Shown here one piece after another: positions 4,515 to 33,000 of a stretch of 44,824 nucleotides of DNA (position 1 is its first letter; every line of letters begins with the position of its first letter). The DNA lies in contig JAGVOW010000007.1 in assembly GCA_020052515.1 (NCBI GenBank), forward strand, positions 1 to 44,824, in the 5' to 3' direction. The notes under the pieces are model-generated. The model saw only the letters and a program-made list of their open reading frames with translations, made no database searches and was not told where the DNA came from. Position numbers and translations under genes: made by a program. This DNA comes from Brevinematales bacterium. GTDB lineage: Bacteria > Spirochaetota > Brevinematia > Brevinematales > JAOACQ01.

Positions 4515-5939
4515 TCATCTCATTGTCATTGCCCTTTCCAACAAATTTTTGATGGAAACATCTTTTGCGAAATCCAGGGCAGTATTATTTTCCTTATTTT
4601 TTTCATTGGCATCCGCACCTTTTTCCAGCAAGAATTTTACAATGTCAAAATTTCCATTATAAGAAGCCGCCATTAACGCGGTATAACCCTCATCGTTTCT
4701 TGCTTTCACATCCATTCCTTTATCCAAAAAAAGTTTAACAAGCTCCAGTTTCCCATTATAAGAAGCCGCCATTAACGCGGTATTCCCATAATTATTTTTA
4801 ACATGGGGGTCTGCCCCTTTCTCTAAAACAAGCTTCACCAACTGTAAATCGCAATTATTAGCCGCTAGAATTAATGCCGTATTACCATTAGCATCTTTCA
4901 CATTGGCATCAGCACATTTTTCTAAAAGCAGTTTTGCAATATTAGAATTGCCCTTATAACAAGCTTTCATAAGAGAAGTCCAGCCAAAGTGATTCTTTTT
5001 ATTGACATCAGCGCTTTTTCTCACCAAAAGCTCTGCAATATCCAGATAACCCTTCTCTGAAACGCTCAAGAGAGGCGTTTTTCCGCTTTCATTTTCCGTA
5101 TTAACATCCGCGCCATTTTTAAGCAATGTACTTGCTACCTCGAAATTGCCATTATCGCAGGCCAACAAAAGTGCCGTATTACCGTTTAGATCTCTGGAAG
5201 ACAGATCAGCACCATTCTGAAGTAAAAGTTTTACTATTCTCAAATCATTATTATAAGAAGCTATCATCAAAGGAGTCCAGCCTTTGCTGTTTTTGACGTT
5301 TAATTCCGCTTTTCTGTTAATTAAATTCTTCACTGCCAATTCTTCGTTTCTCAAAACCGCCACCATTAAAGCCGTCCAACCATCTTTATTCTTAACATTA
5401 ACATCGGCTCTCTGATTTAATAGAAGTTTAAAAATTTTATCCTGTTTTTTATTAATAGCCCACATAAGCACACTATTGCCGTCTCTATCACGATTATTTA
5501 AAAAAGCGGAAATTTTAGCAAATTTCCCCGCTTCTTTTGCCATACCGCAGGCTGTGTAAATCAAAAGAGGGGAAATCCCGCCGTTTTTTTCAGGAGAAAG
5601 TATGTCTTTACTTTCAACCAGAAGCTCGACCAATTCTCTATGACCATTTAAAGCCGCTAGTACTAACGGAGTACATCCGTTCTCATTGGTCACATAAACA
5701 TCCGCCCCTGATTTTATGGCAAATTTAGCCATCTCCAGATCACCATTCTGGCAAGCCAATAAAAGAGCCTCTGATTTTTGAGCATATTTTTTATCCAATT
5801 TTTCCGTTCCATTGACTATTTTCCATTGAATCAACCCGATATTGGCCTTTTCCATCACACAAAAAACCTTGCCTGGGTTCAAATAAAAGAAGGCAAAAGA
5901 AATAAAACAAACAATTTCTAAAAAAAGCCTGAAAAACAT
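4515..5939 (-). CDS. Exported ankyrin-repeat protein
   Basis: A 474-residue protein with a hydrophobic N-terminus (about residues 1-20, signal peptide or anchor) and then roughly a dozen ankyrin repeats of about 33 residues covering most of the chain (patterns such as GNTALMAASYNG and LLLEKGADAN). Ankyrin arrays bind protein partners, and the export signal places this one in the periplasm or membrane. A GAGGAGGG ribosome binding site precedes the start. Two neighbouring repeats near the C-terminus are almost identical at DNA level, a sign of recent unit duplication. It is a single-gene unit. Confidence 0.85.
   Translation of the reverse strand: MFFRLFLEIVCFISFAFFYLNPGKVFCVMEKANIGLIQWKIVNGTEKLDKKYAQKSEALLLACQNGDLEMAKFAIKSGADVYVTNENGCTPLVLAALNGHRELVELLVESKDILSPEKNGGISPLLIYTACGMAKEAGKFAKISAFLNNRDRDGNSVLMWAINKKQDKIFKLLLNQRADVNVKNKDGWTALMVAVLRNEELAVKNLINRKAELNVKNSKGWTPLMIASYNNDLRIVKLLLQNGADLSSRDLNGNTALLLACDNGNFEVASTLLKNGADVNTENESGKTPLLSVSEKGYLDIAELLVRKSADVNKKNHFGWTSLMKACYKGNSNIAKLLLEKCADANVKDANGNTALILAANNCDLQLVKLVLEKGADPHVKNNYGNTALMAASYNGKLELVKLFLDKGMDVKARNDEGYTALMAASYNGNFDIVKFLLEKGADANEKNKENNTALDFAKDVSIKNLLERAMTMR
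4654..4783 (-). repeat. Duplicated ankyrin unit at DNA level
   Basis: A 31-nt stretch is repeated exactly at 4654-4684 and 4753-4783. The offset is 99 nt, one 33-codon ankyrin unit. Both copies encode TALMAASYNG. Confidence 0.8.
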
Positions 5940-15453: not shown

Positions 15454-16986
15454 TCATTTCAATTTATTTTCTAAATTTTCCGCCGCTTTTCGAATTTCCT
15501 CAAGTTTATCCGGGGGAAGCTGTCCAAAATCCGCAGAAAAGCCCATTAAAGTCTCAATGAGCATAATCTTTTTATCCAGGTCAGCTATAGCTTTATCCAT
15601 CTCCTGAACTTTTGGGTTCTTTCCTTTCTGACTGAAACGAGGTTTTTCTATAATGTTAGTTACTTCTTTCTCCTTCTGTTGCAGAAGATTCTCGTAATAT
15701 CCTTTCAGTAAGTCCAATTTTTGATTGTATTCCTTCTGATTTTCTTCCAGCTTTTTTTTCAGCTCTTCTGTATCTTTGTTTGTTTGGACAATGGCCACAT
15801 TAATTTCTGGTTTATAAAAATTGGTTTCTACTTCTCTGGCTACTGTCGCATTACTTATGAAATTATTAGTATTTGTGGCCGGGCGGCTCACAGAAGGCGG
15901 ATAATTTCGTGCCGCTAAAAGCCGGTCTACAGCCTCTTCCAGGCCTTCCGCAAAACCGCTTTTTTGTCCTTTTTCGTTTGTAGAAAAACGGGAACCATTA
16001 ATCAGGACATCCATTTTATCGAGAAGTTGATTCATTTTTTCAAATAAGCCTACCTCCGCTTGTACTAATCCATAAGGCGCTCCGCTCAACTGTACAGCGC
16101 TGACAGACGACGGATTGGTCTCTAAACTTTTCGGCAAAACAGAAACGGGTTCAAAAAGCTTCAGCGGCAGAGAAAGTTTAGAGCTTGAAAGAACCGTCCC
16201 CAGAGCAATTTGTTCCATGGTTTTAATGGTTATCTCATTATAGCACACCGCTACAGAACCATCAGGATTAGAAAACTGGTTATAGCGAAATTTTGCGAGC
16301 GGCTCAACAGAATAAGAAAAATCTTTTTCATCCAATTTTTTCCAATTTCCTAAAATTACCATATCTGGCCTGAGCTCGTTGCAGGCCGGATAAATATAAA
16401 GCCCCTCTCCAAAAGACAGATTTTCGGCATCCATCATCCCGCTGAACAGGAAACCGGGAATCAGCTGATCTTTGAAAATCCGGTCATACTCTATTTTTTC
16501 ACCACCCATCGTATAAAGATAAACTTTTTTATTGGCTTCGTCGTAAACGGTATCAAAAAGAAACCGCACTCCAGCCCGGATAGGACGGACGTCTTTATTA
16601 TTAATGGATACCACGCAAACAATAGAATCATAATCATTCTGCGAAAGATTGGTGAGGATAAAGGAAATTTTAAAACCGGTATTTCCTTTTCTAAATTCCC
16701 CAGAAATTCTATTGTTTTCTACTTGCAAAGGCTTGTCAAAAGGCACTTCGTCTAAACGAAAAGACTTCCCTTCCAATAAAATGCTGACATAAGAAGCCGG
16801 AGGAGCATCGTAAAACAAAAGGTTTTTTAACCTCTTTGAAGGATTGGGGTTTTCCAGATAAAAATGAGAACTCTTCTCATCTAAATAGAAAGCAATTTTT
16901 TTTCCATAAAGGGAAAGAAAATCACCAAATAAAAATGAATGCCCCAGGATAAAAAATGTTAATAAAAGAAATATCAAGCGCTTCAT
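15454..16986 (-). CDS. Secreted beta-rich protein with C-terminal coiled coil
   Basis: A 510-residue protein of unknown family. It has a signal peptide (residues 1-21), an N-terminal region of about 250 residues that reads as mostly beta strand (many alternating hydrophobics, FRLDEVPFDKPLQVEN and similar), a low-complexity linker, and a long charged coiled coil from about 395 to the end. The coiled coil suggests oligomerisation or a rod. Its start overlaps the stop of the upstream YbgF/BamD-like gene by 4 nt, so the two are coupled. Confidence 0.7.
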   Translation of the reverse strand: MKRLIFLLLTFFILGHSFLFGDFLSLYGKKIAFYLDEKSSHFYLENPNPSKRLKNLLFYDAPPASYVSILLEGKSFRLDEVPFDKPLQVENNRISGEFRKGNTGFKISFILTNLSQNDYDSIVCVVSINNKDVRPIRAGVRFLFDTVYDEANKKVYLYTMGGEKIEYDRIFKDQLIPGFLFSGMMDAENLSFGEGLYIYPACNELRPDMVILGNWKKLDEKDFSYSVEPLAKFRYNQFSNPDGSVAVCYNEITIKTMEQIALGTVLSSSKLSLPLKLFEPVSVLPKSLETNPSSVSAVQLSGAPYGLVQAEVGLFEKMNQLLDKMDVLINGSRFSTNEKGQKSGFAEGLEEAVDRLLAARNYPPSVSRPATNTNNFISNATVAREVETNFYKPEINVAIVQTNKDTEELKKKLEENQKEYNQKLDLLKGYYENLLQQKEKEVTNIIEKPRFSQKGKNPKVQEMDKAIADLDKKIMLIETLMGFSADFGQLPPDKLEEIRKAAENLENKLK

Positions 16987-17798
16987 TTTTTCTCCTCAAC
17001 ATCTATAGATGGTTCCTCGTTTGTTTCTTGAATCCATTTGTTTTTCTCTTGAATAGCCTTTTCTTTCAATTCCAGAAGCTTTGCTTTCAGTTCTATCAAT
17101 TCCTGATAGCGCTCTACCTCCGCAAGCCGTTTTTTACTTTCCTGCATTTCTTCTTCCCCTGCCAGGGCATTTGTGTCCGTTTGAACACCTTGATTAGAAA
17201 TCATATTGGTCAAAGCTCCAGTTTCCAGCTCTTCTAAAACAACTATATTGAGATTTGTGATCTTAATTTTTTCCGCCGCCTCTTGATAATAACGGCTTTC
17301 TTTAAAATGAAGCACAATATACTCATAAAGCTTCCCGGCTTCTTTAGGCATATTTAAAGCCTCATAAGAATGCGCCGCGTAATAAAAAGATGCTGGCCGC
17401 GCGGGCGAATTCGTGAAGCGGAGCGCAAAATCTAAAAAAGAGGCGGCAGAATGGGTATAATCTTTCAGATGATAATAGCTCTCTCCTATTCCAAAGAGCA
17501 ACTGCCGTTTTTCCAAATCATTCCCGTTTCTTTCTTCCAATTCCAGAAAGCTTTCCAGTGCCTTTTTGTGATTTCCCAGAGCAAAAGCTGATTTGCCAAG
17601 ATAATAAAGCGCTTTATTAAAAAACAGGGAAACATGGTATTTTGAAGTAAATTCGGAAAATTCGGAAAAGCTCTGCTTGTAATTTTTCTGTTCGTAGAGT
17701 TTTTGTGCAAACCGGAATTTCGCTTCATCAATTTCAATAGAAAAGACTGTGCCAGATAAAAACAAGGAAAGAATTAAAAAAATAATAACCCTTTGCAT
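16983..17798 (-). CDS. Periplasmic TPR protein, YbgF/BamD-like, first gene of cluster
   Basis: A 271-residue protein with a signal peptide (residues 1-20), about four TPR units with the Tol-Pal YbgF/CpoB or BamD spacing (YYLGKSAFALGNHKKALESF, FYYAAHSYEALNMPKEAGKLY), and a coiled-coil tail rich in Glu and Lys. It opens the six-gene minus cluster. Its ribosome binding site AGGAG is part of a 32-nt hairpin leader (17805-17836) that is also found in front of the sugar dehydratase gene at 31597. Confidence 0.75.
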   Translation of the reverse strand: MQRVIIFLILSLFLSGTVFSIEIDEAKFRFAQKLYEQKNYKQSFSEFSEFTSKYHVSLFFNKALYYLGKSAFALGNHKKALESFLELEERNGNDLEKRQLLFGIGESYYHLKDYTHSAASFLDFALRFTNSPARPASFYYAAHSYEALNMPKEAGKLYEYIVLHFKESRYYQEAAEKIKITNLNIVVLEELETGALTNMISNQGVQTDTNALAGEEEMQESKKRLAEVERYQELIELKAKLLELKEKAIQEKNKWIQETNEEPSIDVEEKK

Positions 17799-17804
17799 TC
17801 CACA

Positions 17805-17836
17805 CTCCTATGAGAAAAATTGCTGCGCAATTTTTC
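17805..17836 (-). promoter_or_regulatory. Hairpin-plus-RBS leader element, copy 1
   Basis: Minus strand: AAAAATTGC, a 3-nt loop, GCAATTTTT, then CTCATAGGAG containing the ribosome binding site, 6 nt before the ATG at 17798. The same 32 nt recurs at 31559-31590 with four differences, three of them in the loop and one that keeps pairing as G-U. Confidence 0.65.
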
Positions 17837-20987: not shown

Positions 20988-21011
20988 AGGCGCGGTTAAT
21001 TAACCGCGCCT
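20988..21011. repeat. 24-bp perfect palindrome, copy 1
   Basis: A perfect 24-nt palindrome with arms AGGCGCGG and centre TTAATTAA, 36 nt past the stop of the minus-strand gene ending at 21048. A near-identical copy is at 26847-26872. There is no U-tract, so it is not a classic terminator, although as RNA it would fold strongly. Confidence 0.8.
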
Positions 21012-21047
21012 AAAGTATTAGATATTTAACTGCAACCCACTAAACAA

Positions 21048-24963: not shown

Positions 24964-26859
24964 GTGAGAAATAATTCTGGATTTGACGTCATCGTTGTCG
25001 GCGGGGGACATGCCGGCATTGAGGCAAGCCTCGCTTCCGCCCGGATCGGCGCGAGAACCCTCCTGATCACCTCTCATATTGACCTCATTGGGCAGATGCC
25101 CTGCAACCCCTCAATTGGCGGAATCGGTAAGGGCCAGCTGGTAAAAGAAATAGACGCTTTAGGCGGAGAAATGGCTAAAGCCGTTGACTCTACGGGAATC
25201 CAATTCCGCACGCTCAATATGCGCAAAGGTCCTGCCGTACGCTCATCCCGCGCTCAGGCGGATAAAGCGCTTTACCGGGCCTATATGCAGAAAACACTGG
25301 AAAGCCAGAAAAATCTGGAAATCAAACAGGACATGGTAAACGACCTGATCCTCCATGAAGGAAAAATCGAGGGGATTATCAGCGCTTTGGGGCAAACCTA
25401 TTCCGCAATGTGCGTGGTCATTACCCCGGGCACTTTTCTCAACGGCCTGATCCACATCGGCGAAAAGACTTTCCCGGCAGGCCGGCTTGGCGAAGGCCCT
25501 GCTATTATGCTCTCTGAAACCTTAGAAAAAAACGGCTTCAGAATGGGCCGTTTCAAAACCGGCACGCCGGCTCGATTGGACAGCAGAACTATTGATTTCG
25601 GAAAAACGGAAATCCAGGAAGGCGATATTCCGGCAAAGCCCTTTTCATTCTGGACAAATCCAGATCCAGCTTTTCTTGAACAGAAGCAATTACCCTGCTA
25701 CTTAACCCACACTACAGAGAAAACGCATCGCATTATTCGCGAAAATATTCATCTCGCGCCCATGTATTCCGGAAAAATCCAGGCCACCGGAGTCCGCTAT
25801 TGCCCATCAGTAGAAGACAAAGTCATGAAATTCCCAGAGCGCGAAAACCACCATGTCTTCCTGGAGCCGGAAGGCCACGATTCTATCGAATACTACCCAA
25901 ATGGCCTGTCCAATGGTTTTCCCATTGAGATTCAACTGGAATTGATCCACAGTGTTCCAGGGCTGGAGAATGCGGCGATGATGCGCCCGGCATACGCCAT
26001 TGAACATGACTACGTTGATCCTACGGAGCTTTTGCCTACTTTAGAAACCAAGAGAATTGAAAATCTTTACCTGGCAGGGCAAATCAACGGCACCACCGGC
26101 TATGAAGAAGCGGGAGCGCAGGGTTTAATCGCCGGAATCAACGCTGCCAATCGCGCCCTGGGGAAACCGCCTTTTGTACTGGATAGAAGCGAGGCTTATA
26201 TCGGTGTTTTGATTGATGACCTGACTACCAAAGGTACAAATGAGCCATACCGGATGTTTACTTCCCGCGTAGAGTACCGCTTGATCCTTAGAGAAGACAA
26301 CGCGGATAGAAGACTGTCAAAGAAAGGGGTTGAATTAGGAATTTTGCCTCTGGATTGCTACCAGAAAACGCTCGAAAAAGAGAGGCGTATTGAAGAAGCT
26401 CTTTCGATACTCCGAAAGCTTCATTTAAACCCCAATGAAGAAACAAATCAAAGATTGGAAAAATTAGGCACCCCAGCTATCCGAAAACCCTTTCGCTTAA
26501 TTGAGATTCTCAGAAGGCCAGGAATTTCGCTGGATTTGTTTTTTGAAAAGTTTCCAGAATTAAAGAGTCCGGGCGTTTTTGATGGCCATGCTATTTCAGA
26601 AGAAGTTGAGATCGAGATCAAATACGAAGGGTATATCGCTGAAGAAAGATTGATGGTAGAAAGTTTTAAGAAATTTGAAAACATCCCCATACCAGACCAT
26701 TTTAATTATGAAAATCTTCCCGGCCTCAAGCGCGAAGAAATAGAAAAACTAACCCGGATGCGGCCGATCAATTTAGGGCAGGCAAGCCGGATATCTGGAG
26801 TCAGGCCCGCCGCCATTCAAATCCTTTTGATTTATTTAAAGGAGCGTAGGCGCGGTTAA
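24964..26859 (+). CDS. mnmG: tRNA uridine-5-carboxymethylaminomethyl modification enzyme
   Basis: A 631-residue MnmG (GidA). With MnmE it installs the cmnm5 group on the wobble uridine of tRNAs, including tRNA-Glu(UUC). FAD-binding GGGHAG is at residues 13-18, and the family blocks [14 protein letters not shown] and [13 protein letters not shown] are intact, as is the C-terminal helical domain. It starts at GTG with AAGGAAG 6 nt upstream. The last codons and stop lie inside the palindrome at 26847-26872. It converges on the phosphatase gene. mnmE is not in the window. Confidence 0.97.
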
Positions 26860-26872
26860 TTAACGGCGCCTA
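26847..26872. repeat. 26-bp near-perfect palindrome, copy 2
   Basis: Same core as 20988-21011 (GGCGCGGTTAATTAAC) with one mismatched pair, extended by one base on each side. The TAA of mnmG is at 26857-26859 and the stop of the convergent phosphatase gene is at 26870-26872, so both stops fall inside the element. Confidence 0.8.
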
Positions 26873-28399
26873 CAGTTTGATCACCAGGATCGTCCTGTCG
26901 TCTTTCTGAGGGGCGCCTTCAAAAAAATCTTCCAGCCGGAATAAAATATTCCCGATCATGTCAGAAGCGCTGCTATCTTCTTTTTTCACTTCTAAAAAAA
27001 TATTTTCCAGGCGTTCTTTACCAAATTGTTCCCCTTCCGGATTGGCTCCTTCAATAATGCCGTCGCTGAACATTAGAATAGCGTCTCCATTTTGATAAGT
27101 AATCGTGTCAGCGGAAAATTTCGCGTTTCTAAATGTCCCAATAATCGGGTTTTTATTTTTGATCCGATTGACGGCCTTTTCACGGGCGGAATAGTAAAGC
27201 TGGTCGGTATGCCCGGCGGAAATATAGCTGACGGTCTTGTTTTCAATATGAATCAAACATGCAAAAAGCGTAGCGTAAGAATAGGTGTTTTCCAGAATTT
27301 TGGTGATTCTTTGATTCAAAAGCGTAAAAGTCTGAGAGAGGTCATTAAAGATCTTTTCCTCGATCATCTCCTCCACTTCCACTTTCAACATAGCCCAGAT
27401 CATTGCTGCGTAAACTCCATGCCCCGAGGCATCTCCCAAAAGGATGAGGAAAGTTTTTTCATCCAATTTGTAATAATCATAATAATCGCCGCCTACACTT
27501 TGCATTGGCATATAAGATATTTCCATATCCAGATAATTCTGAATAGCTTTCTGTTTTTCCAGAGGTAAAAGTGATATTTGAAGGGATTGGGCCGTTCTCA
27601 CATCATCCATCATCTGGCGGTTCAATTCTGTTAATTTCTTATTGGATTCATAAGCGCGGCTTAATACATCGCTGTACTCAAAAACCAGGTTTAGGCCCAG
27701 GCCGAGAGCTAAAAATATCAGGCCTAAAGAGTACAAAGGCACCGTTTTTGAGAAAACAGGGCTCTGCCCTGAAATAAAATAAAAAATATCTAATGATACC
27801 AGAATAACAGCCGCCATCCCGCATATAATGACAATTCTATAGCGGGCCTGATTTAAAGGGTTTAATTTACCGCTTTCCCGGCTAAAAACCCTTAAAAAGT
27901 TGATGTTTTCAATGATAGCCGCCAAAATCAGATAACCCATAAAAATAGCAGCAAGAATCCTCTCATTTGTGTGAAAAAAAATCTTCAAGTGGTCAGAAAC
28001 CAGCACCAAAAAAACAATGGCAGTAGAAAAGCTCAGAAAAACAATAACATACTTTTTGCTGATACTTTTATAATCATCCGTTTCAACAAAAATAGAGTCT
28101 TTTATCGCTATGAGAGTGTTTCTCAAGAAAAGGATGTAGGCAGAAAAACCGATTACTCCCGTTAGAAATTCCAATTTGGTTAAGAAAAAACCAAAATGCC
28201 CTCCCGCAGAAATCCTTAAAGATCCCAGAATGCCGGCCGAGGCAATAAAAATACCCAGAAAGGCTGTTAAAAACACCGACAGCACATTTTTCTTGAGTTC
28301 TCTCTGCATTAAAATCAACACAAAGAAAACAAGGTATTCCAGGCACAAAAACAGTCCGAAGCCAAAACTAACAAGAAAAAAACAAGCGTAAAGATTCAT
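26870..28399 (-). CDS. Membrane SpoIIE/RsbU-type serine phosphatase
   Basis: A 509-residue protein with about eight N-terminal helices (to about residue 240), a short coiled linker (ANESNKKLTELNRQMMDDV region) and a C-terminal PP2C/SpoIIE domain. The metal-binding acidic motifs are present: GGDYYDYY, LGDASGHG, FSDGIIEG and KDDRT. Such enzymes dephosphorylate anti-sigma antagonists in partner-switching systems, but no partner gene is near. The start at 28399 (GAGGTG upstream) replaces an upstream ATG at 28441 that would run the N-terminus into a repeat. Confidence 0.9.
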   Translation of the reverse strand: MNLYACFFLVSFGFGLFLCLEYLVFFVLILMQRELKKNVLSVFLTAFLGIFIASAGILGSLRISAGGHFGFFLTKLEFLTGVIGFSAYILFLRNTLIAIKDSIFVETDDYKSISKKYVIVFLSFSTAIVFLVLVSDHLKIFFHTNERILAAIFMGYLILAAIIENINFLRVFSRESGKLNPLNQARYRIVIICGMAAVILVSLDIFYFISGQSPVFSKTVPLYSLGLIFLALGLGLNLVFEYSDVLSRAYESNKKLTELNRQMMDDVRTAQSLQISLLPLEKQKAIQNYLDMEISYMPMQSVGGDYYDYYKLDEKTFLILLGDASGHGVYAAMIWAMLKVEVEEMIEEKIFNDLSQTFTLLNQRITKILENTYSYATLFACLIHIENKTVSYISAGHTDQLYYSAREKAVNRIKNKNPIIGTFRNAKFSADTITYQNGDAILMFSDGIIEGANPEGEQFGKERLENIFLEVKKEDSSASDMIGNILFRLEDFFEGAPQKDDRTILVIKL

Positions 28400-30583: not shown

Positions 30584-31342
30584 ATGTTTCAGCTGGGACT
30601 CAAGCTCTGGTCTACCAATGAAAATTATATCGCTCAAGCAAAACAAATTTATAAGAAAGGAATTTGTCATTATATTGAGCTATACGCGGTTCCCGGTTCC
30701 TTTGACCAATTTATTCATTTGTGGACAAAGCTAAGTGTGCCTTTTATCATCCATGCTCCCCATTATACCAGCGGAATGAATTTAGCTGACAGCGGGAAAA
30801 AACTTGAAAACAGAAAAATGGCTAAAGAGGCAATTCAGTTTGCGGACGCCTTGAAAGCTGTTCATATTATCTTTCATCCCGGCGTAAATGGGAATTTAGA
30901 AGAATTGATCCGGCAGATAGAAGAAATCTATGACGAGCGTATTTTAATAGAAAACAAACCTTATTTTGGCGCGGGCGGGCAAGTGGTCTGCAACGGCAGT
31001 TCCCCGGAAGAAATAAGATGGATCATAGAAAAGACCGGGCTGGGTTTTTGCCTGGACTTCGGCCATGCGGTCTGCGCCGCAAACGCCCAGAAAAGAGAGC
31101 CATTATCTTATATTCAGGAATTTCTGGAACTTTCCCCGAAAATGTTTCATTTTACAGACGGTGATTACAAAAGCGTTACGGATCAACACCTGCATTTCGG
31201 GAAAGGAAGCTTCCCTTTACAGGAAATGACTGTCCTTTTCGCGGAGAATGCACGGATTACCAATGAGGCAAAGAAGGATTCTGAAGAGAATCTGGATGAC
31301 TTTGTCCGGGATATGGAAATTCTTTCGAAAATCTTACCTTGA
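30584..31342 (+). CDS. Sugar isomerase / AP-endonuclease-like TIM-barrel protein
   Basis: A 252-residue protein of the xylose isomerase-like TIM-barrel superfamily. Metal-binding positions can be read in order: HAPH, HPG, ENKP, LDFGHA, HFTDGD and HLHFGKG. These match the endonuclease IV / sugar-phosphate isomerase fold, but the substrate cannot be chosen between DNA and sugar. An AAGGGG site precedes the ATG. It ends the lipoprotein operon. Confidence 0.75.
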   Translation: MFQLGLKLWSTNENYIAQAKQIYKKGICHYIELYAVPGSFDQFIHLWTKLSVPFIIHAPHYTSGMNLADSGKKLENRKMAKEAIQFADALKAVHIIFHPGVNGNLEELIRQIEEIYDERILIENKPYFGAGGQVVCNGSSPEEIRWIIEKTGLGFCLDFGHAVCAANAQKREPLSYIQEFLELSPKMFHFTDGDYKSVTDQHLHFGKGSFPLQEMTVLFAENARITNEAKKDSEENLDDFVRDMEILSKILP

Positions 31343-31438
31343 CAACTCCAGCTTGAAACCTTATAATCTTGGCACGATAAATCGAAGCAATTCCTGCGCA
31401 GTAAACTGCTTCACGGAATTGGATTATTATACCAGGTA

Positions 31439-31539
31439 ATACCAAGTTGCAATCAATATTAGTGATACTTGCGTAGATATGATAGCGAGGACAAAGCTTC
31501 ATAGATGCGCTTAGTATCACTTTGATTGCAACTTGGTAT
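31439..31539. mobile_element. MITE-like inverted-repeat element
   Basis: Perfect 18-nt terminal inverted repeats beginning ATACCAAGTTGC (31439-31456 and 31522-31539), then a further 9-nt pair AGTGATACT (31461-31469 with 31513-31521) offset by 4 nt on the left, and an imperfect inner extension. There is no room for a transposase. Size and structure fit a MITE or a large folded repeat. Confidence 0.65.
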
Positions 31540-31558
31540 AAGAGGTTTGAAAATAGCC

Positions 31559-31590
31559 GAAAAATTGCTATGCGATTTTTCTCATAGGAG
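31559..31590 (+). promoter_or_regulatory. Hairpin-plus-RBS leader element, copy 2
   Basis: AAAAATTGC, a 3-nt loop, GCGATTTTT, then CTCATAGGAG, ending 6 nt before the ATG at 31597. Same as the leader at 17805-17836 apart from the loop and one change that keeps pairing as G-U. Confidence 0.65.
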
Positions 31591-31596
31591 CAAAAA

Positions 31597-33000
31597 ATGA
31601 AAAAACTCCTCATTGTCGGCGCGGGCGACGCGGGAAAAATGGTCGCGAAAGAAGTGACCGCTCACCGCGAGACGGCTAAAAAATACGAGCTTATTGGTTT
31701 TCTGGATGATAATCCGCTCAAAAAAAGCGCTGAAAACAAGCCTGTCCTGGGAACAATTGATGACATCCGCAAGATTATAGAAAAACATTCTATTCAAAAA
31801 GTGATCATCGCCATTCCATCGGCCAGTAAAGAGCAAATCAACCGGATTTTTTCCCTTCTTTCCGGGATTTCCGTAGAAACAAAAATTGTTCCCGGAATTT
31901 ATGAAATCATCGCGGGCAATGTCTCTTTAAGTCAGATACGTCCCATTGAGCCCTCAGACTTGTTGGGGCGTGAAGAAGTGGGCTTTGATGAGGAAGAACT
32001 GACCGCCTTTTATCAGGATAAAAGGGTTTTTGTTTCTGGAGCGGGCGGCTCTATCGGAAGCGAGCTCTTTATCCAGCTTTTAAATCTGCCCATAAAACAG
32101 GCCGCGGCTTTCGGACATGGCGAAAACTCTATCCATATTTTGATCCAAAAAATTGGAAATGATCCCCGTTTTGCCTACGCTATCGGCGATATACGCGATA
32201 GCGATAAATTAAGTCACGAAATGCGGCGTTTTTCCCCGGATTTTGTTTTCCATGCCGCCGCGCACAAACATGTCCCGTTGATGGAAGATTATCCCGATGA
32301 AGCCGTGAAAAACAATATCCTTGGGACTTACTATTGCGCGGCGGCGGCGATCAACGCGAAAGCAAAGAAATTCATGATGATCTCGACAGACAAAGCTGTA
32401 AATCCTACATCCGTAATGGGGGCAACAAAACGCGTGGCTGAGAAGATTGTACTTTCTCTGGGAAAAATCCAGGAAGGCACAGCCTTTTCTCTTACCCGTT
32501 TCGGCAATGTGCTGGGCTCGCGCGGAAGCGTAATCCCTATCTTCAAGAGCCAGATCGAAAAGGGAGGGCCTATTACGGTGACCCACCCGGATATTGAACG
32601 GTACTTTATGTCTATCCGGGAAGCGGCCAGATTAGTCATAAAATCAGCCTCCATTGAGGAAGGAGAAGTGTTTGTGCTGGATATGGGCAAGCCGATGAAA
32701 ATCCTGGAATTGGCCAAAAGCATGATCCGGCTTTACGGCTACAGAGAAGACGAAATACCATTTGTCTTTACAGGCCTTCGCGCTGGAGAAAAGATGTACG
32801 AAGAGGTACTCAGCAATCAGGAGAATCTGGCTAAATCGGCCTTTGAAAAGCTGTTTATCTCGCGTGAAACGCAGGACCTTTTTTCAAAAGAAGAATTAGA
32901 CCGGCTAATTTCGGAATTTACCGCCGTGTCAAAAAACAATAATATCAAAGAAATAAAAACCCTCATTAAGAATTATGTTCCGGAATACCGGGGAGAATAG
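31597..33000 (+). CDS. Nucleoside-diphosphate-sugar 4,6-dehydratase, CapD/PglF-like
   Basis: A 467-residue protein: N-terminal Rossmann domain (KKLLIVGAGDAG) and a C-terminal SDR with GAGGSIG at 148-154. In place of the usual YxxxK it has MGATK (Met274, Lys278) after STDK (263-266), typical of CapD/FlaA1/PglF dehydratases acting on UDP-GlcNAc. The N-terminal membrane helices of full CapD/PglF are missing, so it should be soluble. A DegT aminotransferase follows at once, as in pathways to UDP-4-amino-6-deoxy-N-acetylglucosamine. Confidence 0.85.
   Translation: MKKLLIVGAGDAGKMVAKEVTAHRETAKKYELIGFLDDNPLKKSAENKPVLGTIDDIRKIIEKHSIQKVIIAIPSASKEQINRIFSLLSGISVETKIVPGIYEIIAGNVSLSQIRPIEPSDLLGREEVGFDEEELTAFYQDKRVFVSGAGGSIGSELFIQLLNLPIKQAAAFGHGENSIHILIQKIGNDPRFAYAIGDIRDSDKLSHEMRRFSPDFVFHAAAHKHVPLMEDYPDEAVKNNILGTYYCAAAAINAKAKKFMMISTDKAVNPTSVMGATKRVAEKIVLSLGKIQEGTAFSLTRFGNVLGSRGSVIPIFKSQIEKGGPITVTHPDIERYFMSIREAARLVIKSASIEEGEVFVLDMGKPMKILELAKSMIRLYGYREDEIPFVFTGLRAGEKMYEEVLSNQENLAKSAFEKLFISRETQDLFSKEELDRLISEFTAVSKNNNIKEIKTLIKNYVPEYRGE

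Follow-up and report, generated by a model that had tools for sequence, protein, structure and literature searches.

Small palindromic repeats are usually dispersed over non-coding DNA. The SDR repeats of Nostoc, attributed to Elhai et al. in 2008, are reportedly very small and structured, with compensatory changes and nesting, and one of them, SDR5, is said to be confined to HIP1 sites. REP and REPIN palindromes, some of them perfectly palindromic around a 3-nt loop, are mobilised by RAYT (TnpA-REP) transposases (PMC3733652, PMC8266576, PMC3116915), and by definition a REP has a GTAG or CGTC tag adjoining its palindrome (PMC3733652). The BOX, RUP and SPRITE repeats of pneumococcus are modular and dispersed, can be transcribed within 5' leaders, and are over-represented between convergent genes, at a distance from translation signals (PMC3049150).

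The element analysed here comes from a genome of 2.6 Mb in 114 contigs (G000), one contig of which (C30) is the window, that is, the whole stretch of 44,824 nt that was analysed. By FtsA, its nearest named relative is Brevinematales bacterium SKW211 (76% identity), which makes an uncultured Brevinematales spirochaete the most likely source. It resembles REP, MITE, SDR or BOX repeats, yet it lacks the REP tag, the link to a RAYT and the placement of these families, and it is filed here as a variant form among small dispersed palindromic repeats. Like REPs and REPINs, it consists of short palindromes dispersed in the non-coding DNA of one lineage, with compensatory stem changes, and G000 has five Y1 transposase genes. 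Unlike REPs, its perfect hairpin (SL2) carries no GTAG or CGTC tag, the flanks in the alignment being TAGCC on the 5' side and TCATAGGAG on the 3' side, and its copies stand in a single orientation at Shine-Dalgarno (SD) sites, whereas REPs are arranged as inverted doublets across extragenic space in general. A RAYT-driven REP was rejected because the five Y1 loci are all without the element's hairpin and are flanked by other palindromes instead. Like the Nostoc SDR, the element is a tiny structured repeat with one short target, although the phylum and the sequence are different and the target here is the Shine-Dalgarno sequence. Unlike BOX, RUP and SPRITE, it occurs almost only directly upstream of start codons. 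Separate palindromes, AGGCGCGGTTAATTAACCGCGCCT, lie in the window at 20988-21016 and 26848-26876, and a Y1 gene (C54, L236) has a closely similar sequence, TAGGCGAGGTTAATTAACCTCGCCTA, at its flank; these palindromes may be the RAYT-linked REPs of G000.

Extent and anatomy of the hairpin family

A sequence-only reading had pointed to two nearly identical 32-nt leaders in the window, and the triloop and one A-to-G change (U-A to U-G) are indeed the sole differences between the two; as read from the sequence, both stop 6 nt short of the ATG and include the ribosome binding site. Copy A (minus strand, 17836..17805) is GAAAAATTGC-GCA-GCAATTTTTC-TCATAGGAG and copy B (plus strand, 31559..31590) is GAAAAATTGC-TAT-GCGATTTTTC-TCATAGGAG, with the common form GAAAAATTGC-NNN-GC(A/G)ATTTTTC-TCATAGGAG (Table 1). 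The two matches are weak by themselves, as shuffled windows gave a mean of 0.92 when 3 mismatches were allowed. The leader of an ankyrin gene (minus strand, 5960), put forward as a weaker third match, was ruled out as a copy by its missing pairing partner (MFE about -0.1 kcal/mol). The ankyrin gene itself, on the minus strand, contains a tandem array at 4579-4974 made up of four 99-nt units (33 aa each) with 61-72% identity.

The family extends far beyond the window. A search of the genome with the hairpin pattern, which might have found no further copies, returned 24 sites compared with 0 for a reversed control. A covariance model was built on the 53-nt core (the last 53 nt of the element) from 13 copies with indel-free cores, and at a threshold of E<=1e-3 it found 31 copies in the whole genome, including a tandem pair at C45; two weaker matches, at C55:48368 and C25:16272, likewise lie just upstream of start codons. 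An assembly artefact was rejected, since more than 20 contigs bear copies, beside ordinary housekeeping genes and with differing flanks.

The 32-nt leader is thus real, but it makes up just the 3'-terminal part of a longer repeat. A full copy consists, 5' to 3', of a stem-loop of about 65-75 nt (SL1), a 20-nt linker (TAAGAGGTTTGAAAATAGCC), the perfect hairpin SL2 with the consensus (A)5-8T(T/C)GC-NNN-GC(A/G)A(T)5-8, and CTCATAGGAG. SL1 is laid out as CTGGTATGATAAACCGATCGCAATTCC, an inner palindrome of at least three forms, and GGAATTGGATTATTATACCAG. The 5' ends differ in length between copies, and the 3' end is constant at CTCAT+AGGAG. Copy A retains SL2 and the tail only, and its model match (41 bits, E 1e-5) spans model positions 22-53 only. 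Copy B matches the model over 31538-31590 (E 1.2e-14) and is split by a 103-nt MITE-like repeat that is foreign to the element proper, other copies being without it there. This repeat (ATACCAAGTTGCAATCAA / TTGATTGCAACTTGGTAT) has 13 end-matches in the genome, and it interrupts the copy at C67:8329 as well.

SL1 has peculiarities of its own. It reads as a small ORF, MINRSQFLRSKLLHGIGLLYQ (31376-31440 in copy B), in roughly half of the full copies, often with GGAG 5-6 nt ahead of the ATG. This upstream ORF was rejected as a conserved feature because, by eye, the start codon or frame is lost in the other half. The SL1 interior in L028, L003 and L013 reads GTTTGTAGAGACGCAC...GTGCGTCTCTACAAAC, which contains GTAG beside a palindrome and resembles, at the level of sequence, a GTAG-tagged REP nested inside the element.

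Table 1. Features of the two window copies and the genes that follow them
Feature	Position	Strand	Basis
Copy A SL2 hairpin GAAAAATTGC-GCA-GCAATTTTTC, 10 bp + triloop	17814..17836	-	sequence, genome pattern, model match
Copy A tail TCATAGGAG; Shine-Dalgarno AGGAG 17805-17809; ATG 17798-17796, 6 nt on	17805..17813	-	sequence
Gene after copy A: 271-aa TPR protein	16983..17798	-	ORF, Pfam TPR
Promoter-like TTGACA-17-TATAAT, upstream of copy B	31339..31367	+	consensus match by reading
Copy B 5' stem-loop SL1; P1 CAATTCC 31388-31394 / GGAATTG 31415-31421	31370..31435	+	sequence, fold, P1 covariation elsewhere
MITE-like repeat between SL1 and linker of copy B, ends ATACCAAGTTGCAATCAA ... TTGATTGCAACTTGGTAT	31436..31538	+	end-matches
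Copy B conserved linker TAAGAGGTTTGAAAATAGCC	31539..31558	+	alignment
Copy B SL2 hairpin GAAAAATTGC-TAT-GCGATTTTTC	31559..31581	+	sequence, model match
Copy B tail TCATAGGAG; Shine-Dalgarno AGGAG 31586-31590; ATG 31597, 6 nt on	31582..31590	+	sequence
Gene after copy B: 467-aa CapD-like nucleotide-sugar epimerase/dehydratase	31597..33000	+	ORF, Pfam Polysacc_synt_2 1e-105

All 31 copies are oriented as the next gene, and the expectation that they precede start codons was borne out, with AGGAG 4-12 nt upstream of the start codon in 28 of them; random insertion into non-coding DNA would be expected to place roughly 1-2% of copies at such positions. The exceptions are C5:5387, where the next gene uses its own SD further on, C67:8329, which is followed by a 16-codon ORF and then a lipoprotein gene, and the upstream member of the C45 tandem pair. 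Some copies lie downstream of promoter-like sequence, copy B being a putative example (Table 1), and others are intra-operonic, right behind a stop codon (rplE-rpsN, ftsQ-ftsA and pstB-phoU). The downstream genes include rpsN, ftsA, lysS, phoU, dapA, galE, galT, purL, leuC, mtnP and a capD-like gene, as well as flagellar, TPR, glycosyltransferase, ABC ATPase, antitoxin-like and lipoprotein genes, ten of these assignments being checked with Pfam and the rest made by reading the protein sequence. Their roles are mixed (ribosomal protein, cell division, amino-acid, purine, sugar, phosphate, flagellar and lipoprotein), and no shared theme was found among the genes downstream of copies.

Structural constraint and its possible causes

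The proposal that the leaders contain a selected RNA hairpin stands in part. Copies across the genome and covariation of the stem arms point to a pairing constraint before start codons, but the lack of a shared function among the genes that follow puts a dedicated RNA regulator behind other readings. In SL2, the run of A is as long as the run of T (5/5, 7/7 or 8/8) in 25 of 33 copies, compared with a shuffle mean of 13.3. In the model alignment, which itself leans towards structure, 98.6% of cells are paired; 0 of 500 shuffles were as high, and all slid versions were lower. The inner stem of SL1 (P1) carries compensatory changes as well, to CAATCCC/GGGATTG at C92 and GAATTTT/AAAATTC at C100:8333 (shuffle p 0.008), and covariation in the outer stem (P0) was not above that of shuffles. 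Taken singly, the leaders have ordinary folding z-scores (-1.0 to -1.5), so the case for the hairpin stands on the family evidence.

Sequence constraint is uneven along the element. Among the 13 core copies, the triloop has a mean pairwise identity of 36%, the linker 88%, the stem 97-99% and the tail 100%, the last figure being somewhat flattering because these copies were picked as indel-free model-builders; outside them, the tail also appears as CTCTTAGGAG, CGTAGGAG or TTCCAGGAG. The 31 copies have 19 different triloops, and the free triloop is useful for distinguishing copies.

One possibility is that the element is a cis-acting regulatory RNA leader, in which a protein, a small RNA or a condition such as temperature reads the hairpin and CTCATAGGAG and controls how the roughly 30 genes of a regulon are translated. 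The SD distance, fixed in nearly all copies, the co-varying stem arms, and the invariant tail of the core copies beside a free triloop would all suit such a leader, and the CTC of the tail is able to pair with the GAG of the SD. We nevertheless consider it unlikely, since the genes downstream have no theme in common, their orthologues in a related genome (G001) do without the hairpin, the SD lies outside the stem, and the triloop, where binding often takes place, is unconserved. Moreover, a search of six loci against Rfam 15 (E up to 1) matched a tRNA region only, which weighs against the leader and led us to reject a known RNA family. As for CTCATAGGAG itself, it does not appear to be an extended Shine-Dalgarno sequence, as CTCAT is not enriched before GGAG in 187 other genes, although it would become one if the 3' end of the 16S rRNA were CACCTCCTATGAG.

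An alternative explanation is that any insulating hairpin before the SD is selected independently and that the family spread merely by chance copying. Of 257 genes sampled, 22 do have a perfect inverted repeat of at least 8 bp ahead of the SD, compared with 1.1 in shuffled sequence, and about half of the 22 are other hairpins. What makes this account improbable is that the copies have linker, stem and tail sequence in common, beyond structure, and that the corresponding excess in G001 is small (14/619 versus 6.1). Finally, the palindrome AAAAATTGC-N3-GCAATTTTT could be a DNA operator bound by a dimeric transcription factor, and its symmetric arms and unconstrained centre are indeed operator-like. 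We give this very little credence, as some sites separate the promoter from the SD and others are intra-operonic (rplE-rpsN, ftsQ-ftsA), the distance is fixed to the SD and not to the promoter, both arms change length together (from 5 to 7 to 8), and the non-symmetric linker and tail fix the orientation.

Probable gain, dispersal and docking at Shine-Dalgarno sites

The nearest relative compared, G001, belongs to another genus of the same family. Six of its orthologues (ftsA, rpsN, dapA, galT, phoU and a flagellar gene) are without the element, and the six empty sites keep the promoter or operon junction (stop codon), the SD and the start; the rplE-rpsN junction, for example, is AAAATAGGGAGGATTTATG in G001 and AAAATAG, about 54 nt and GAGGAAATAATG in G000. 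Because these six orthologues have an SD without a hairpin, the element would have been gained in the G000 lineage by dispersal, and a gain in G000 appears more economical than six losses in G001, a polarity based on the single genome G001 and on the family being missing elsewhere in the order. The covariance model did not find the family in 30 relatives, among which G025 and G007 had one match each, at just 23-26 bits, and pattern or BLAST searches did not find it in GTDB r220, IMG/VR, plasmids or phages, two phage matches being 26 nt long with an E of 0.3. Carriage by a virus or plasmid was rejected on the outcome of the IMG/VR, plasmid and phage searches.

The element also seems to have left shortened copies. 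CTCATAGGAG occurs 31 times in the genome, compared with once in the control, and it stands without SL2 at six or seven more SDs (C3, C33:55216, C40, C55:50123, C66, C98 and C110), where the base frequencies predict about 0.7 (Poisson). To judge by their sequences, these sites look like remnants of the element: C3 keeps a linker-like GTAGAGGTTT, C66 and C98 have half a stem left, and C33:55216 starts with an SL1-like GTATGATTAACC with another palindrome within. Since the sites without SL2 end in CTCATAGGAG, the 3' end is the constant part. An acetolactate-synthase-like gene (L272; C55, near contig position 50154) also has CTCATAGGAG at its SD; it follows a short ORF, MGPFSTIIVLVLVVVTLSF..., and a strong T-run terminator hairpin, and its leader looks like a classical ilv-type attenuator.

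The reading that we favor, and regard as reasonably probable, is that of a lineage-specific dispersed palindromic element located directly 5' of Shine-Dalgarno sites and expected in the mRNA leaders of unrelated genes. The element would spread as DNA, in the manner of a REP or MITE, and would either dock at GGAG/AGGAG or survive only there. Insertion may be tolerated with the SD and start codon intact right behind a self-contained hairpin, which would separate them from upstream RNA and leave the SD free. If insertion were targeted to AGGAG alone, copies away from SDs should be more numerous than they are (p about 0.0002-0.005), so selection or another bias must act besides targeting. Retro-copying was rejected, as the genome has no reverse transcriptase (no PF00078 match). 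Dispersal covers neither the near-random triloop nor the well-kept tail, and a near-saturated triloop beside a conserved linker and tail suggests constraint after insertion.

It is possible, if rather doubtful, that this is a mini-element that targets Shine-Dalgarno sites for insertion and keeps the SD intact, behind an insulating hairpin. Insertion would then be silent and add a standard leader, with the triloop re-randomised each time. Like IS200/IS605-derived elements, the repeat has a hairpin close to either end and a short motif (AGGAG/CTCCT) fixed at one of them, features that by analogy would fit target-directed single-strand insertion of that kind. Unlike them, its SL1 has no evident guide sequence, and no partner TnpA transposon with the element's ends is present among the G000 Y1 loci, a partner that may be extinct or unassembled. 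With regard to the inverted ends and target-site duplication of MITEs, SL1 and SL2 are separate hairpins, and the left GGAG/GAG-like flank at C21, C108 and C33 resembles the SD and is inseparable from the element itself.

For a dispersed repeat, the placement at the SD is unusually precise. A family docked at SDs in one orientation, with essential genes included, tests how much structure is tolerated just upstream of the SD. If dispersal of the element to these sites is true, it would illustrate how, in nature, one repeat can rewrite many mRNA leaders at once.
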